Origin: Actinomycetaceae bacterium | GTDB lineage: Bacteria > Actinomycetota > Actinomycetes > Actinomycetales > Actinomycetaceae | Reading direction: 5' to 3' | Assembly (NCBI GenBank): GCA_030540715.1 | Contig: JAUNVQ010000003.1 | Location: 1-64,000 of the forward strand | Length of the DNA stretch: 64,000 nt | Part shown: one piece after another, positions 45,414 to 56,291 of the stretch | How the letters are laid out: each line of letters opens with the position of its first letter | Numbering within the stretch: the stretch's first letter is position 1 | Notes under the pieces: model-generated | What the model was told of the DNA's origin: nothing | What the model saw: the letters and a program-made list of their open reading frames with translations, nothing else | Database searches by the model: none | Program-made: the position numbers and the translations under genes

Positions 45414-45863
45414 ATGGCGCTTTCAGACTACGAAAAGCAGATCCTTGAACAAATGGAGAGGCAGCTTCGTGCTGAAGACCCGGAGCTTGGCTCTGCATTT
45501 GATTCAACGACAGGTAGCTTTTCCGCGCCTTCAGACACAGATAGTCAATCGGGATCTTCACCTCGCTTCTATTCTTCACCGCGACTATGGGCTACAGTAT
45601 TTGTTAGTATTTTGCTGGGACTGACTTTATTGCTTGCAGGTGTTTCCCTTTTTCATACCTATACAATATTAGGTGTTATTTTGGCTGTTTGCGGTTTTCT
45701 AGCAATGCTGTTTGCCGTAACCTTGCCACTGAATAAAAAACTTGCCGTCAAATTAAAAGCCCGTAAACCTCATCAAAAACAACCGCAACCCACCGCTACT
45801 CAGCAGTCTTTTATGCAGCGTCAAGAAGAAAAGTGGGATCGGCGAAAGGGCCGTAGCAACTAG
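45414..45863 (+). CDS. DUF3040 membrane protein
   Basis: 149 aa. Starts MALSDYEKQILEQMERQL followed by RAEDPELGSAF, the hallmark of DUF3040 proteins, which are confined to actinobacteria. Two adjacent transmembrane helices (about 61-80 and 85-103) and a basic Gln/Lys-rich tail follow. In many actinobacteria it lies just upstream of mraZ and the dcw cluster, as here, though the fused murEF gene now sits in between. RBS GGGGGAAGG. Its stop is 7 nt from the stop of convergent murEF. Function unknown, likely cell envelope related by context. Confidence 0.92.
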   Translation: MALSDYEKQILEQMERQLRAEDPELGSAFDSTTGSFSAPSDTDSQSGSSPRFYSSPRLWATVFVSILLGLTLLLAGVSLFHTYTILGVILAVCGFLAMLFAVTLPLNKKLAVKLKARKPHQKQPQPTATQQSFMQRQEEKWDRRKGRSN

Positions 45864-45870
45864 CAGCTGA

Positions 45871-48800
45871 TTATTTGCATAGGTAGTCGGCTATTGACCA
45901 GATACGTGAACCAAAAGACCCTTTACAAAGAACGGTGTCACCGCTGCGTAAAAGATTATCGATTTCTTGTTGGGCTTCCTGCGCCGTATCGAAATAGTGG
46001 GACTCTATAGAGGAGCGTACACACTCGTAAAGAGGTAGGGCTTCTTTCCCAACAACAATGCAGCATTGGCAACCACATTCAATCGCAATCTTTCCAACAT
46101 GTTCATGCCATTGGCGTGATTGCGATCCAAGTTCAAGCATCTCGCCAAGAATAGCAACACTGCGGGAGCCTTGAGCCTGAGCTTGATGGTAAAGTGCACG
46201 AAGCCCAGCTTTCATTGAGTCGGGGTTGGCATTATAGGCATCATCAATCACACAGATACCATCTTTTCGCTGATAAACAGCCATTCGGTGAGCCGATACA
46301 GCTTCAAAAGACTCCAGAGCTTCAGCAAGCTGGTCAATATTCATTCCGCAGTGCAATGCAATTGCGGCACTGGCCAACGCATTATTGACATGATGAGCAC
46401 CCACTAGGCGAAGTTTTACGGTGCGCCGTTGGGGGTCAGAAGTATTGTCTTTGAGATAGCAGAGGACGAAGGATGCGCAACCATTAGTGCTGATGGTAAT
46501 GTCTTCTGCCCATACGCCGTAAGGCTGGCGAGTGCCTTTTGCGCTAAAAAATATCGGCCTGGCCCTTGTGGAATCTTTCATCGCCGCAACAAGTGGATCG
46601 TCAGCGTTGAAGATAGCTGTTGATGAACTATCCAAAGACTCCACCAGTTCTGCCTTAGCTGTTGCCAAAGTGGCTACATCACCAAAGCCACCCAGGTGGG
46701 CGGTGCCAACCATCAGCTCTACACCAATGTCAAGGTGAGCGAGTTTTGTTAGATAGCGAAGTTCACCCAGGGCAGAGGTTCCCATTTCAAGAACAAGATA
46801 GCGTGTATCGCAGCCAGCTTTTAACAGGGTATGGGGCACACCGATCTCATTATTGAAAGAACGTTCTGGGCCAATGGTCTTTCCCATATATGACAGCAGG
46901 TGAACGGTGAGATCTTTTGTGGTGGTCTTTCCTGCTGACCCCGTAATGCCAATAACAGTCATGGGGGTGCTAAAACGCTGTTGGTAGGAACGGATAGCAC
47001 TGATATGTGCTGCAGCTAAAGCTCCAAGAGCCTGCGTGGGATCATCAACAACGAGCACAGGAACAACCTGTTGTTGGATGGAACGATATACTGAGCTGAT
47101 TTGTTCTTCAGCCTTGTGTAGATTCGAGGCCATAATCGCTGTTGCGCCATTTCTTAGCGCCGAGGCAATGAAATCATGTCCGTCATGAGTTTCTCCAGTG
47201 CGCGCAACATATAAACTAGATGGCGTTACTTGGCGAGAGTCGATAGAAGCGCCAAAAAGAAGTGAGAAAGCTGGAAGAGTGAAAAAATCTTGTGTCGATT
47301 TCCCGTCGGGGCGGATAAAGAAAAGCCGTGCCCTTGTAGCTTTTACAGCGTGGCTTAATGACATCAAAAGATTTTGGTCACTGATGCGCGGATCCCTGTC
47401 AGTAATGGCTGCATAAAGAGGAATATCATAAAGACGTCCTGATTCAGTGCCAAGATGGTAGCGCCGTTGTAGCATACGTTTGGCAACAAGACGGTCATCA
47501 AAGAAATGGTCATAACCGTGCATAACCTGTAAATCTTCATGCCCGCGGCCAAGAATAACTAGGCAGTCATCGCTATGTGCGTCACGAATCATCTGCCAGA
47601 TAGCATCTTCACGAATCCCCATCACATCATAGGAGACATCGTAACCATCATTGATTGCCTGATGTATCCCCTGTGAGATAGCCAGGCGAACTTCAAGAGG
47701 ATTATCGTTGTAGGGAGTATCGTCACATATATGCACAATATCGGCGTGACGCGCTGCAGCATAACCCATATGGGGTCGTTTTTCTTTATCACGATCACCA
47801 TTAGCACCCACAATGCATTGAAGCTGCCCACGGCAATGCATGCGCAGTGTTTGTAAGACTGTATCAACAGCTTCTGGAGTGTGAGCATAATCAACGTAGA
47901 CACGAGGGGCATCCTTGGGTAACCCCGGGACCGTAATAGATTCAAGACGACCAGGAATAACAATACTTGTTGAGCATGCGGCAAAAGCTTCCTGCGGCTG
48001 ATAGCCAAGTTGAATAAGGCAACATGCAGCCATTACTGTATTCTCAATATTGTGTTCACCAGGTAATGTGGTGGATGCTTCAAAGGATTCACCGTTACGA
48101 AGATGAACCATAAAATACTGGCTGAGTGATGATGGACAACGAGTGATACTACTGATCCACAGGTCGAGATCGGGAGTCTCCTTGGCATCGCATCGTCCTT
48201 CGATGGCATAGGTAAGGGTGTCAAGTTCAGTGATGTCTGCAAGGCGGCGTCCCCATGAATCATTGAGACAAATCACGGCCTTGTCAGCATAGTTCGGGTG
48301 AAAAACGCTTGCTTTTGCGGCAAAATAGTTGTCCATTGTGCCATGAAAATCCAAATGATCATGTTGAAGATTAAGAAAACCTACGATACGAAAACGAGTT
48401 CCTTTCAGGCGTTGCGCCGCAATTCCTTGAGATGATACCTCAATGGATAAAAGCTCGTCGCCTGCTTCAACGCTGTGTGCAGCTAACTGCTGCAAGGTGG
48501 GTGCTTCCAGAGTAGTAAAAGCAGATTTGCGGGTAATCGATCCTGAAATCGTTTCAATAGTCCCCACAAGTCCACATTGGCGGTGAAGTCTTTGCAAAGC
48601 CTGACGAAGAATCATTGTTGCCGTTGTTTTGCCATTTGTGCCAGTAATCCCCACTACCTGAAGATTCTGGGTTGGATTGTTATAGATCCAAGCCGATAAC
48701 GTACCAAGGCAGTCACGTACGTCAGAAACAATGATAATTGGCACCTGTGATGTCAGTGTATCCTTTTGTGACTTATCATCACATAGCGTGGTAATGAGGT

Positions 48801-49125
48801 CATAACCACTGTGGTCGGTGATGATACATGAAGCCCCTTGAGTGACAACGTCATAAAAGAAAGATGCACCATGAAAAGAGGTGCCAGGAACAGCAAAAAA
48901 TACATCGCCAGGGTGAACATCACGCGAATCCATCGTTGCGCCACGTACTGTTGCGTGCGTGGCGAGCGCAGATTCCTTGTTGAGTTCTGCAGCGGTGTGC
49001 TGGGCGGGGCCAACAACTGTTAATGTGGCACTTGCGTCAAGTCTGACACACTGTTCGTAGAGTGCATCCACGTGATGGTGGTGAAGTGTCGCGGGACGAA
49101 GTGGATTGTCAGCCATGGTGTTCAT
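45871..49125 (-). CDS. murEF: Fused MurE-MurF peptidoglycan precursor ligase
   Basis: About 1084 aa from the ATG at 49125; a longer frame to 49278 (1135 aa) adds 51 residues unlike MurE, and the ATG at 49116 is also possible. Numbering below is for the longer frame. MurE half (about 60-605): ATP loop GTNGKTT (213-219), SSQGIAAQRL, HDHLDFHGT, VDYAHTPEA, GANGDRDKEKRPHMG. MurF half (about 675-1135): SIDSRQVTPSSLYVA, GITGSAGKTTTKD (780-786 core), SFNNEIGVPHTLL, DDAYNANPDSM. MurE adds the third stem amino acid and MurF adds D-Ala-D-Ala, so one chain would do two successive cytoplasmic steps. Where DAP enzymes have DNPR this has DTPY (520-523). It is antisense to, and just upstream of, the dcw cluster that lacks both genes. 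Confidence 0.95.
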   Translation of the reverse strand: MNTMADNPLRPATLHHHHVDALYEQCVRLDASATLTVVGPAQHTAAELNKESALATHATVRGATMDSRDVHPGDVFFAVPGTSFHGASFFYDVVTQGASCIITDHSGYDLITTLCDDKSQKDTLTSQVPIIIVSDVRDCLGTLSAWIYNNPTQNLQVVGITGTNGKTTATMILRQALQRLHRQCGLVGTIETISGSITRKSAFTTLEAPTLQQLAAHSVEAGDELLSIEVSSQGIAAQRLKGTRFRIVGFLNLQHDHLDFHGTMDNYFAAKASVFHPNYADKAVICLNDSWGRRLADITELDTLTYAIEGRCDAKETPDLDLWISSITRCPSSLSQYFMVHLRNGESFEASTTLPGEHNIENTVMAACCLIQLGYQPQEAFAACSTSIVIPGRLESITVPGLPKDAPRVYVDYAHTPEAVDTVLQTLRMHCRGQLQCIVGANGDRDKEKRPHMGYAAARHADIVHICDDTPYNDNPLEVRLAISQGIHQAINDGYDVSYDVMGIREDAIWQMIRDAHSDDCLVILGRGHEDLQVMHGYDHFFDDRLVAKRMLQRRYHLGTESGRLYDIPLYAAITDRDPRISDQNLLMSLSHAVKATRARLFFIRPDGKSTQDFFTLPAFSLLFGASIDSRQVTPSSLYVARTGETHDGHDFIASALRNGATAIMASNLHKAEEQISSVYRSIQQQVVPVLVVDDPTQALGALAAAHISAIRSYQQRFSTPMTVIGITGSAGKTTTKDLTVHLLSYMGKTIGPERSFNNEIGVPHTLLKAGCDTRYLVLEMGTSALGELRYLTKLAHLDIGVELMVGTAHLGGFGDVATLATAKAELVESLDSSSTAIFNADDPLVAAMKDSTRARPIFFSAKGTRQPYGVWAEDITISTNGCASFVLCYLKDNTSDPQRRTVKLRLVGAHHVNNALASAAIALHCGMNIDQLAEALESFEAVSAHRMAVYQRKDGICVIDDAYNANPDSMKAGLRALYHQAQAQGSRSVAILGEMLELGSQSRQWHEHVGKIAIECGCQCCIVVGKEALPLYECVRSSIESHYFDTAQEAQQEIDNLLRSGDTVLCKGSFGSRIWSIADYLCK

Positions 49126-49568
49126 GCTTTCTGTCGAGAGAGTGATGTCAACTAGGACAGCATCATTGTAGTACATTTTCTTTTGACACTCTGACACGAC
49201 AATCTCTGCTCTGACATTGCCATTGCTGCGATAGCGAAGATCTATGTGTAGGGGCATCATGAATGAATTCACGGACATGCGGTTGTCCTATCGCCCTCTG
49301 GAATTGTTTTCTTAACGCAACGGCGTAAAAACGTCCCTCCACGATCCACCACCCTGTGATAAAAATGTTTCTTCATATGCCATATATGACCTGTAAAGGC
49401 GGAATTGATGAAGCAATTGATGGCAAAACGGTTGCCATTGGGGGGAGGAGACGGCGAAAACAAAATAAGGAGACTGTTATTCTTCTCATTTCCTCCACTC
49501 AAATTTAGTCCTTTTGCCTGCGTTAATGAAAAAAATATGAGATAAATTTATTGAATAGGGTTTGCAGG

Positions 49569-49603
49569 TGGGGGAAAATGGGGTAAAGTGGAGGAAGTTG
49601 GAT
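49569..49603 (+). promoter_or_regulatory. Four MraZ-type operator repeats at 10-nt spacing
   Basis: TGGGG (49569), TGGGG (49579), TGGAG (49589) and TGGAT (49599) recur with an exact 10-nt period just before the mraZ ribosome site. MraZ is known to bind direct TGGGN-type repeats one helical turn apart upstream of its own operon. The stretch 49279-49568 otherwise holds no gene; TTGCCT (49514) and TATGAG (49536) could be a weak promoter. Confidence 0.82.
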
Positions 49604-49622
49604 CGCGAAGGAGGTGATTCCG

Positions 49623-50054
49623 GTGTTTTTAGGAACTTACGAGCCACGTATGGATGCCAAAGGCCGGTTGATCCTTCCCGCACGCTTTCGCGAACAACTA
49701 GCACCTGGAATCGTCTTAACAAAGGGTCAAGAACACTGTGTCTATGGCTTCACCTCAGCAGAGTTTGAGCAGATGTATGAGGAGCTGCGGCAGGCTCCTC
49801 TATCATCGAAACAGGCGCGAGACTATGTGCGTGTCATGTTGTCGGGGGCATCGGATGAAATTCCTGACAAGCAAGGCCGCGTCACGATTCCAGCGCAACT
49901 GCGAAACTATGCGGGTCTTGATAGGGAGCTTGTTGTTATTGGAGCAGGTGCCCGTATCGAGATCTGGAATAAGCAAGCATGGGAAGACTATCTAAGCGAT
50001 CAAGAAGATAACTTCGCATCAACAACTCAAGAGATCATACCGGGAATGTTTTAA
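49623..50054 (+). CDS. mraZ: Transcriptional regulator MraZ
   Basis: 143 aa from the GTG at 49623, preceded by AGGAGGTGA (49609-49617) and giving the canonical [23 protein letters not shown]-type start; an in-frame GTG at 49614 lies inside the ribosome site. It contains two SpoVT/AbrB-like DNA-binding repeats ([13 protein letters not shown] and [13 protein letters not shown]). MraZ forms ring oligomers that bind repeats upstream of its own operon and control the dcw cluster. First gene of a long plus-strand run to beyond the window end. Ribosome- or RsmH-linked roles have also been proposed for the family. Confidence 0.96.
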
Positions 50055-51655: not shown

Positions 51656-53497
51656 GTGGCACGTACACGCAAATCATATCTTGAGCGCAGGCAGATACAG
51701 GGACGCTCAAAAGTCCTCTATGTTGCTGTCATGTGTGCGTTTATTGCATGTATTGGTCAGCTTATCCGTATTCAATTGATTGATGGTCCCGCGCTTGCCC
51801 AAGCAGCGCTTTCAGCACGAACATTTAATTCGGAAGTGGTGCCTCAGCGCGGCGATATTACCGACGCAAAAGGAACTGTGTTAGCTACATCGATAGAACG
51901 CTACGATATTGTGGTTAATCAAAAACAGGTGAAACGATATTTGCATCGGCAAGTTGTCGATGTTGACGGTAACAAAGTTACTGATAAAAAACACTATAAC
52001 GATCCGGGAAATAAAGTAGTGATCGTGGGTACTGGGGCTGCTGAGGCCGCCAGAGTATTGGCTCCAATCCTTCAGATGGATCGTGCTGAACTTGGCGGAC
52101 AGCTTGTGGGCGATAGAGGATACCTGCTGATAAAAAAAGGTGTTCTTCCTGAAACCTGGCGCACCATTAGACAGTATCGCATTGATGGTATTGACGGGAT
52201 CAAAAACTATGAACGTTCCTATCCAAACGGTGCTACAGGTGCCTCTATTCTTGGTTTTACCGACATAGATGGTAAAGGTATTGATGGTATTGAAGCAACG
52301 ATGGAGAAGTATCTAAAAGGCACGCCTGGAAGCCGTGAAATGGAGATCAGTCCATCAGGCCAAGTTATTCCTGGCGGCACTGATGAAGGTACCCCCGCTA
52401 AACCAGGCAGCACTTTGCAGCTGACGATTGACGCAGACTTACAGCATTTTACGCAAACAAAAATAGACGAAGTTACTCAGGCTTTTAATGCTGACTGGGC
52501 TTCAGCGGTTGTGGTCGAAGTAGCAACGGGAAAGGTTCTTGCCTTAGCCGATTCAGGATTAGAACCCCCGCTGGAAATGCGGAAGAAAAAAGGTGGAATC
52601 CGTTCGCATTGTGTTGAATCAGTATATGAGCCTGGGTCAACAGGAAAACTAGTTACCTTTGCTGCGGCTTTAGAAGAAAAAAAGATAACCCCTACCACAC
52701 CTTTTAGTGTGCCGTATCGCATTACGATGCCTGGGCCACACGACTTTAGGGATTCCCATGACCATCCTACTCTACAGCTCACAGCAACAGGTGTGCTAGC
52801 TCATTCTTCAAATACAGGAACGGTACAGGTTGGTAATTTGGTCGAAGATAGTGTTCGATTTGAAAAGATGAAAAAATTCGGATGGGGGCAGCCAACAGGT
52901 ATAGAGTTGCCAGGTGAAACCCCAGGTATTCTTGCTGACTATCATAATTGGGAACCTCGTCAGCGTTACACAACCATGTTTGGGCAAAGTTTGGGTACTT
53001 CTGTTCTTCAGATAGCCTCTCTTGTGGCTACGATCGCAAATGACGGGGTGCGTATGCCCATTCATATAGCTGAGAAAGTGACCGATCCCTACGGTAAAGT
53101 TACACAGCTTGAGCATTCTAAACCAGTGGAAGCACTTGACCGTGATGTAGCACGAACGCTGTCTACAATGATGGAATCGGTAGGTCAAAAGGGAGCAACA
53201 GGATATGCAGGAGTGGTTCCAGGGTATCGTACTGCTTTAAAAACAGGAACATCAGAAAGTCCGCACACTCCTGATAGCCCCAGTGGCGTTGTTGCCTCGA
53301 CTGCAGGATTTCTACCAGCTGATGATCCAAAAATAGCTATCAATGTTGTGGTGTTTCGGCCAAAAAGTGGAACTTGGGGTGGTGTTGTGGCAGCCCCCAC
53401 ATTTTCTGCTATCGGAAAACAGGCAATGGCACTGCTTGATATTCCACCTTCCACTGGGAAAGCAGATCTTTATCCGCAAGAAAGTGGTACACAGTGA
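51656..53497 (+). CDS. ftsI: Septal peptidoglycan transpeptidase FtsI (class B PBP)
   Basis: 613 aa, GTG start. An N-terminal membrane anchor (about 20-42) precedes the PBP dimerisation region (QRGDITDAKGTVLATS, GKGIDGIEATMEKYL). The transpeptidase has the active Ser in EPGSTGK (S328, K331; the usual STFK is STGK), SSN (384-386) and KTGT (529-532). No PASTA repeats. It cross-links septal wall together with FtsW. It is the last gene before a 206-nt gap where murE and murF usually follow. A four-residue tail after YPQ is polar. Confidence 0.95.
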   Translation: MARTRKSYLERRQIQGRSKVLYVAVMCAFIACIGQLIRIQLIDGPALAQAALSARTFNSEVVPQRGDITDAKGTVLATSIERYDIVVNQKQVKRYLHRQVVDVDGNKVTDKKHYNDPGNKVVIVGTGAAEAARVLAPILQMDRAELGGQLVGDRGYLLIKKGVLPETWRTIRQYRIDGIDGIKNYERSYPNGATGASILGFTDIDGKGIDGIEATMEKYLKGTPGSREMEISPSGQVIPGGTDEGTPAKPGSTLQLTIDADLQHFTQTKIDEVTQAFNADWASAVVVEVATGKVLALADSGLEPPLEMRKKKGGIRSHCVESVYEPGSTGKLVTFAAALEEKKITPTTPFSVPYRITMPGPHDFRDSHDHPTLQLTATGVLAHSSNTGTVQVGNLVEDSVRFEKMKKFGWGQPTGIELPGETPGILADYHNWEPRQRYTTMFGQSLGTSVLQIASLVATIANDGVRMPIHIAEKVTDPYGKVTQLEHSKPVEALDRDVARTLSTMMESVGQKGATGYAGVVPGYRTALKTGTSESPHTPDSPSGVVASTAGFLPADDPKIAINVVVFRPKSGTWGGVVAAPTFSAIGKQAMALLDIPPSTGKADLYPQESGTQ

Positions 53498-53703
53498 GTG
53501 CAATAATGGATGTCGTGCCTTCGTATTTTAATATGACAATATTGTCTCAACTAACAACGAGGCCGCGCCACGTGACATGTTAGCGACAAGAGTAGGGCCG
53601 CTTGAGGGGCACAATGACGTATTTTCTGTGGGCGCATACAGTTCAATTCGGCTATATATTGATAGAATCAGTAAACGAGTCAAAGATACGCAAGGAGTAA
53701 AAC
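53498..53703. other. Gap between ftsI and mraY where murE/murF are missing
   Basis: 206 nt without a gene, in a cluster whose other junctions mostly overlap or are under 20 nt. No remnant of murE or murF is recognisable in any frame. An AT-rich TATATTGATAGAATC stretch near 53653-53667 may be part of a promoter for mraY, and AAGGAG precedes the mraY GTG. Confidence 0.7.
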
Positions 53704-54795
53704 GTGGTTGCCATTGGAGTAGCGCTTAGCAGTGCACTAATTTTGTCGCTGTTTTTTACACCCGTGTTAATTCATGTTTTAACAAAACGAAACTTTGGCC
53801 AGTTTATCCGTCAAGATGGTCCCACTGGGCATTACACAAAACGCGGTACACCAACAATGGGTGGAATCGTTATTATTGGTGCAACAACTGTGGCGTGGAT
53901 TCTTGCCCATCTTGTCAGCGGAAGGATGCCAGGATTTTCCGCATTTTTGCTGATGTTTTTATTTATTGGTGCAGGTCTTATTGGTTTTATTGATGACTAT
54001 ATTAAGATTTCAAAACAGCGTTCCCTAGGGCTACACCCTAGTGCAAAGATCATTGGGCAGCTTTCCATAGGGACAATTTTTACTTTGCTTGCTTTACATC
54101 ACCCTAATGCTGATGGAATCACAGCTGCATCATTTCATATTTCTGTTGTCCGTGATACCGTGATTACTCTTGACAGTTGGGGTCTTATTATCGGATTTAT
54201 TCTTATCATTGCATGGCTTAATTTTTTAGTTGCAGCCTGGTCAAACGGTGTTAACCTTACAGACGGTCTAGATGGTTTAGCAACAGGGGCCTCTTTGTTT
54301 TCTTTTGGGGCCTACACGGCAGTGTCGTTATGGCAGTGGTACCAAAATTGCCCAACGGCTGACGACTCAGTGCTTCAGGCATGTTATGAGGTGCGTGATC
54401 CGCGCGACCTTGCAATTATTTCGGCTGCCATAGTCGGGGCTTGTTTTGGATTCTTGTGGTGGAATACCTCACCCGCACAGATTTTTATGGGTGATACTGG
54501 TTCGCTGGCATTAGGTGGTGCTTTTGCAGGCTTATCGATTTTGTCACGTACAGAGTTTTTGGCCGTTATTATTGGCGGTCTTTTTGTGGTGATTGTGATG
54601 AGTGATGTGATTCAGATTGGCGTGTTCAAACTTACCCGGAAACGGGTATTTCGTATGGCGCCGCTGCACCATCATTTCGAATTGAAAGGCTGGCCAGAGG
54701 TCACAATTGTAGTACGTTTTTGGATTATCGCGGGCTTATTCGCTGTGCTGGGTATCGCTCTGTTCTACGCAGAATGGGTAGTGAGGGCGCTATGA
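53704..54795 (+). CDS. mraY: Phospho-N-acetylmuramoyl-pentapeptide-transferase
   Basis: 363 aa, GTG start after AAGGAGTAAAAC. A polytopic membrane enzyme (about ten helices) that links the UDP-MurNAc-pentapeptide to undecaprenyl phosphate to form lipid I. Key motifs: TPTMGGIVI, FIDDYIK with the Asp pair, NGVNLTDGLDGLA, and MGDTGSLALG, as well as the His-rich MAPLHHHFELKGWPE loop. It consumes the product of the fused MurEF. It overlaps murD by 4 nt (ATGA). Confidence 0.97.
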   Translation: MVAIGVALSSALILSLFFTPVLIHVLTKRNFGQFIRQDGPTGHYTKRGTPTMGGIVIIGATTVAWILAHLVSGRMPGFSAFLLMFLFIGAGLIGFIDDYIKISKQRSLGLHPSAKIIGQLSIGTIFTLLALHHPNADGITAASFHISVVRDTVITLDSWGLIIGFILIIAWLNFLVAAWSNGVNLTDGLDGLATGASLFSFGAYTAVSLWQWYQNCPTADDSVLQACYEVRDPRDLAIISAAIVGACFGFLWWNTSPAQIFMGDTGSLALGGAFAGLSILSRTEFLAVIIGGLFVVIVMSDVIQIGVFKLTRKRVFRMAPLHHHFELKGWPEVTIVVRFWIIAGLFAVLGIALFYAEWVVRAL

Positions 54796-56291
54796 GCTAC
54801 ACTCCGTCTGGACAAACAAGCATCGATGCAGGTCACAAGAAATCTCAAACTGCCAGTGTTTTTCATGAAGCTATTGTTATTGTCGTTGGTTTAGGGACAT
54901 CTGGATTAGCTGCAGCAAAGGCGTTAACCCGAGTGGGGGCGCACGTCATTGGCATAGAAGAAAATCATCAAGCATTTCGCACGGCAAAGCTTCAAGGCGT
55001 GAATGCCCGCTGTGCGAATCCGGAGCAGATGGCACAGATAATTACCAATGAGCCCAGTATTGATTACGTTGTTATATCGCCAGGGATCCCGTCTCATCAC
55101 CCCGTTTTTGATGCTGCACGCATACGTGGTGTGGAGCTTATTGGTGAAGTGGAACTAGCTTGGCGTCTTCAACAAGAATCTGAACATCACGACATACCGT
55201 GGCTCTGTGTAACTGGTACGAACGGAAAAACCACAACAGTTGGTCTAGCGGTGTCAATGGCGCGTGCTGCCGGGTTGAATGCTGTGGCTGTTGGCAATAT
55301 CGGCAAACCTGTTGTTGAAGCAATTGGACAAGCCCATGCCGATGTGTTTGTTGTGGAGCTTTCCAGTTTTCAGCTACATACTGTCACAACAATGGCACCG
55401 ACGGCTTCAATATGTCTCAACATTGCTGAAGATCATTTGGATTGGCATGGGAGTAGCCTAGCCTATGCCCGTGACAAAGCACAGATTTATGAACGTACAC
55501 AAAAATTCTGTATCTATAACAAGGAGGAGCCTGCGACAGTTCGCATGGTTGAAGATGCCGAAGTTGTCGAAGGTGCACGCGCTGTTGGTATTCGGCTTGG
55601 TATTCCCGCTATCAGTGAAATTGGAATTGTTGACGATGTCATTGTCGACAGAGCCTTTATTGAGGATCGTGAGCGTCAGGCCGAAGAACTTGCAACTTTT
55701 GATGACCTGGTGCATTTGGGTCAGCCATTACCAGCACTACTGATCGATATTTTAGCGGCTGCAGCTCTAGTAAGGGCCCTGGATGTCGCACCTTCAGCAA
55801 TATCCCAGGGGATTCGTGATTTCCGCATGGCTGCTCATCGCCGTGCTTTAGTGGGGCAAGCACGTGATTTGACGTGGATTGACGATTCGAAAGCAACGAA
55901 CACACATGCCGCGTATTCTTCGCTGAAGAATATGCCTAAAAAATCGGTTATTTGGATCGTTGGGGGAGATGCCAAAGATCAAGATTTTCATCAACTTGTC
56001 ACGGATGTCGCGCCTATCGTTCGCGGAGCCGTTGTGATAGGTAAAGATCAGACTGCTCTTCGTCATGCTTTTGAACAATGTGCTCCTGACATTCCCAGGG
56101 TTCATATTCGTCCGCTTGATCCAGATGAAACTTTGGAAACGCTGATGACTGAAGTAGTTCACGAGGCTGTGGCTTTGAGTGTTCCTGGTAATACCGTGAT
56201 ATTAGCCCCTGCATGTGCGTCTTGGGATCAGTTTGACAACTACGCTCAGCGTGGCGATCTCTTTGCCCAGGTTGTTACTGATATAAGATAA
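54792..56291 (+). CDS. murD: UDP-N-acetylmuramoyl-L-alanine--D-glutamate ligase
   Basis: 499 aa from the ATG at 54792; the longer frame from 54720 lies inside mraY. The N-terminal Rossmann-like part is IVVGLGTSGLAAAKAL, with an acidic strand-end Glu. ATP loop is GTNGKTT (142-148). Central motifs VELSSFQL and NIAEDHLDWHGS and the C-terminal IDDSKATNTHAA (with the carbamylation-site region upstream) are present. It adds D-Glu to the stem. A 35-residue N-terminal extension before the Rossmann motif is polar. Confidence 0.96.
   Translation: MSYTPSGQTSIDAGHKKSQTASVFHEAIVIVVGLGTSGLAAAKALTRVGAHVIGIEENHQAFRTAKLQGVNARCANPEQMAQIITNEPSIDYVVISPGIPSHHPVFDAARIRGVELIGEVELAWRLQQESEHHDIPWLCVTGTNGKTTTVGLAVSMARAAGLNAVAVGNIGKPVVEAIGQAHADVFVVELSSFQLHTVTTMAPTASICLNIAEDHLDWHGSSLAYARDKAQIYERTQKFCIYNKEEPATVRMVEDAEVVEGARAVGIRLGIPAISEIGIVDDVIVDRAFIEDRERQAEELATFDDLVHLGQPLPALLIDILAAAALVRALDVAPSAISQGIRDFRMAAHRRALVGQARDLTWIDDSKATNTHAAYSSLKNMPKKSVIWIVGGDAKDQDFHQLVTDVAPIVRGAVVIGKDQTALRHAFEQCAPDIPRVHIRPLDPDETLETLMTEVVHEAVALSVPGNTVILAPACASWDQFDNYAQRGDLFAQVVTDIR

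Follow-up and report, generated by a model that had tools for sequence, protein, structure and literature searches.

A murE-murF fusion gene adjacent to mraZ

The window analyzed here, a stretch of 64,000 nucleotides from an Actinomycetaceae bacterium (contig JAUNVQ010000003.1), contains a murE-murF fusion gene on the minus strand (45871..49125; 1084 aa from ATG 49125). The gene is convergent with a plus-strand DUF3040/SCO2097-family gene (45414..45863; family match below the curated cut-off), with 7 bp between their ends, and divergent from mraZ (49614..50054, plus strand), the first gene of the dcw cluster. The full open reading frame (45871..49278, minus strand) has 1135 codons and no internal stops, and both ligase families were recognized in it above their cut-offs, in agreement with the original prediction of MurE and MurF domains in a single unbroken minus-strand frame.

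Depending on the start codon, the protein has 1084 (49125), 1081 (49116) or 1135 residues (49278). The start proposed originally, 49125 (Met52 in the 1135-aa numbering), is better supported than 49278 because the LRP motif of family MurE N-termini comes just after it (MADNPLRP is found right after Met52/Met55, and MurE proteins of relatives begin with this motif, e.g., LSDLRP), because residues 1-56 are mostly predicted to be disordered (1-25 and 35-56), and because codon bias is weak upstream of Met52. A possible 51-aa N-terminal extension (49126..49278, minus strand), which shows this disorder and weak bias, is doubtful, although ATG 49278 has a better Shine-Dalgarno sequence (AGGA) than ATG 49125.

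Domain architecture and predicted activities

The MurE part (47470..48951, minus strand; residues 110-603 in the 1135-aa numbering) matched TIGR01085 with 510 bits (curated cut-off 257) and contains the P-loop GTNGKT, K322 within HGTMDNYFAAK, DDTPY in place of DNPR, and GRGHE. The MurF part (45880..47364, minus strand) is folded from approximately residue 639 and matched TIGR01143 over residues 679-1133 with 438 bits (curated cut-off 289); its motifs include GSAGKTTTK, NNEIGVP and DDAYNANP. In alignments, the catalytic loops were kept in both halves. When MurF-only and MurE-only sequences were aligned jointly to the fusion, the MurF rows were placed on the MurE half, and therefore the halves were modeled separately. 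These half-by-half models were confident (mean pLDDT 85 for MurE and 88 for MurF). Between the halves lies a linker of approximately 30-34 residues (605-638; 47365..47466, minus strand), which had low pLDDT in both models (below 50 for residues 612-639 in one and 601-634 in the other) and was predicted to be disordered (612-639).

MurE and MurF are essential cell-wall enzymes that act in succession. The N-terminal half is predicted to add the third amino acid to UDP-MurNAc-L-Ala-D-Glu, and the C-terminal half to add D-Ala-D-Ala, yielding UDP-MurNAc-pentapeptide. The flexible linker of approximately 30 residues would tie the halves together, such that they are produced one-to-one and stay near each other. 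A modest reading of the effect of the fusion is tethering and fixed stoichiometry rather than substrate channeling.

The arginine of the DNPR motif recognizes meso-diaminopimelate (meso-DAP). In the MurE half the third-residue loop is DDTPY, with GRGHE downstream; the DNPR sequence expected of a meso-DAP-adding MurE was not found. Among 58 aligned MurE proteins, GRGHE accompanied DDDPH/DDDIY-type loops, whereas DNPR was paired with GKG. Since DNPR is absent, the third amino acid is probably not diaminopimelate but L-lysine or a residue resembling it. It should be noted, however, that the DAP-ligase model NF001124 conflicts with the motif: the MurE half scored 550 bits against a curated cut-off of 476. 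Annotation pipelines would thus label this half a DAP ligase, contrary to its motif.

Copy number and distribution of the fusion

A second murE or murF had been named beforehand as the finding that would count against the original prediction. The source assembly is a draft of 54 contigs (2.56 Mb, 99.75% complete), and a Mur_ligase_M search of this whole genome detected the two fused domains together with MurC, MurD, MurT (matched below the cut-off of the MurT model) and FolC, but no second murE or murF.

As had been supposed, the arrangement is also not a standard actinobacterial one. A search with NF008896 covered 213 genomes of the family, 396 of the order and 396 of the phylum (overlapping sets, the latter two being samples; more than 900 actinobacterial genomes), and the only stop-free full-length match was the fusion described here. 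Other joined MurE-MurF matches in these genomes all contained stops and were rejected as same-frame neighbors. When 84,980 species genomes were scanned non-exhaustively for peptide patterns, a single further fusion free of stops was recovered, from a Cloacimonetes metagenome-assembled genome (MAG), and no actinobacterial MurE-MurF was found in the open-access literature searched.

Relocation and inversion within a conserved neighborhood

In approximately 40 mapped genomes of the family, covering most genera, the gene order is serA-HelR-orf-dinB-DUF3040-mraZ-rsmH-ftsL-ftsI-(murE)-murF-mraY; a few of these genes were not detected in some genomes. Cluster-resident murE and murF genes of these relatives were always located in the ftsI-mraY interval, and apart from the source genome none of these genomes had murE or murF between DUF3040 and mraZ. 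In the source genome this neighborhood is otherwise conserved, but the murE-murF gene is located between DUF3040 and mraZ on the minus strand, which supports the relocation and inversion predicted originally. The vacated place was also as predicted: ftsI ends at 53497 and mraY starts at 53704, leaving a gap of 206 bp (53498..53703, plus strand), and no murE or murF remnants were detected in the four neighboring gaps searched, including this one.

Partial departures from the family order were also observed. In approximately 10 genera of the family (L108-L112, L123-L127, L129 and L133-L140), murE is gone from the dcw cluster while murF remains. Many of these out-of-cluster MurE proteins form a group of their own and carry a DENPR loop, unlike dcw-resident MurE proteins, whose loops are of the DDDPH or DDDIY type. 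In G011 (L126), murE is near but outside the cluster, on the far side of serA and a few kb ahead of mraZ. G014 (L125) has a full murE on another contig and a weak MurE-like match (87 bits) between ftsI and murF, at the old murE place, which is perhaps a decayed remnant. In G028 (L127), one of the closest relatives of the source genome, ftsI appears split into three parts and murF into two; these breaks are probably sequencing indels, or perhaps real decay. Two murE matches with identical scores occur in G522 (C3:74925 and C15:3823), representing a duplicate or an assembly artefact. Within the window, the longest reading of murD (54720-56291, TTG start at 54720) overlaps mraY (53704-54795) by 76 bp, and murD probably begins at a more internal position.

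Origin of the two halves

We propose that a murE was fused to the native murF within the source lineage, and that transposition and inversion brought the gene into the gap between DUF3040 and mraZ, from which it would be transcribed away from mraZ. A tree built from eight dcw proteins grouped the source genome with G027 and G028 (support 100), and the MurF half grouped with G027 MurF (support 92; the broken G028 MurF was omitted). The MurE half did not group with MurE of the nearest relatives. A clade with MurE of G027, G028 and G517 was rejected (p-AU 0.016), which suggests that the MurE half might come from another lineage and have been joined to the native murF, instead of descending from the ancestral dcw murE. 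We consider such an acquisition possible but less likely than not; it concerns the origin only. The best matches of the MurE half were all actinobacterial, and its grouping with dcw-resident MurE of genus g24, though weak (support 57), fits retention; the DD..Y loop and GRGHE are common to both. In addition, the branch of the MurE half was the longest in both trees (2.4-2.8, median approximately 0.5), which makes its placement unsafe. A clade with all nine MurE proteins of the G027/G028 group (six from genomes with murE outside the cluster, G033 inside, G517 and G572 unmapped) was not rejected (p 0.12). The old cluster murE may have been retained in the source lineage and replaced in its near relatives, or the MurE half may have been acquired.

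Reality and function of the fusion

The fusion is known from one draft genome, the only member of its genus sampled, and could in principle reflect an assembly or consensus error joining two separate inverted genes through a lost stop or a misjoin. In 32 genomes of the order, murE and murF are in the same frame and separated by just one or two stops, such that one base error could mimic a fusion. However, the linker of approximately 30 residues is in frame with a positive codon score throughout, no good Shine-Dalgarno sequence is present at the would-be MurF start, GC content is even, and the flanking genes on both sides are the usual ones for the family; we therefore regard such an error as very improbable. 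Equally improbable is a translated fusion whose MurE half has lost or changed its function, its job being done by another enzyme: the MurE branch is very long and H is replaced by Q in the EVSSH motif, but 8f5d has I and some relatives have Q at the same site, the invariant columns retained include the P-loop, the context of the carbamylated lysine, PGR and GRGHE, and the genome has no other murE. Overall, we estimate a probability of approximately 85% that the gene encodes a real bifunctional ligase, the sole MurE and MurF of this organism, with the mechanism and origin proposed above.

Relation to the MraZ operator

An MraZ operator-like array (49569..49601, plus strand) composed of the 10-bp repeats TGGGGGAAAA TGGGGTAAAG TGGAGGAAGT followed by TGG directly precedes mraZ. 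With a matrix built from 26 relatives, the window excluded, it scored 36 bits and was the only such array in the window. Its distance to the candidate starts of murEF is approximately 290-450 bp, and the murEF side had no MraZ-like site (best score -1.0 bits versus 36 for the true operator), which fits an escape of the fused gene from direct MraZ repression. In a sigma-70 promoter scan, matches were no commoner than in shuffled sequences, with none in the intergenic region, and a literature search found no MraZ operator papers for Corynebacterium. The coupling of two successive steps and their escape from operon control, both put forward originally, are possible consequences of this arrangement. 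That the sole MurE and MurF are expressed from a promoter firing away from mraZ and lacking an MraZ operator, so that precursor supply would be regulated separately from the division genes under MraZ control, is a tentative idea that we hold as rather doubtful.

Comparison with known MurE-MurF proteins

The same two ligases appear to have been fused independently outside the phyla in which MurE-MurF has been described, and the location of the gene departs from one of the most conserved bacterial gene orders. As a natural experiment, the organism would allow one to ask whether cell-wall precursor supply changes when MurE is tethered to MurF or when the two leave the dcw operon.

As noted in the original prediction, such fusions exist in some other phyla. 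Examples are those of Bordetella (NCBIfam PRK11929) and of the Cloacimonetes MAG. In Bordetella, MurE and MurF form one bifunctional chain, whose linker has approximately 20 residues in B. pertussis; the protein is elongated, flexible, able to dimerize and interacts with MurG, and MurE-MurF has also been listed for Pseudovibrio, Desulfobulbus and Desulfobacula (PMC6420597). The actinobacterial fusion resembles the Bordetella protein (NF008896/PRK11929) in having MurE first and MurF second in one chain with a short linker, and matched this model over positions 18-950 of 965 without a stop. However, its score (704 bits) was below the curated cut-off of 1023, so it is probably an independent fusion of Bordetella-like architecture rather than an NF008896 member. 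It also differs in phylum, in a MurE loop that is not of the DNPR type, and in being located outside the operon and inverted. The PDB entry 8f5d_A ('Multifunctional fusion protein', 803 aa) aligned with the fusion over MurE and most of MurF. The Cloacimonetes protein (MAG UBA5553, L040) is likewise encoded by a stop-free MurE-MurF frame (976 aa), but it belongs to an unrelated phylum and is only 28% identical to the actinobacterial fusion. The separate murE and murF genes of the family (213 genomes) share the dcw neighborhood and encode MurF proteins up to 48% identical to the MurF half; they differ in being two genes, with murF between ftsI and mraY and murE either there or elsewhere.
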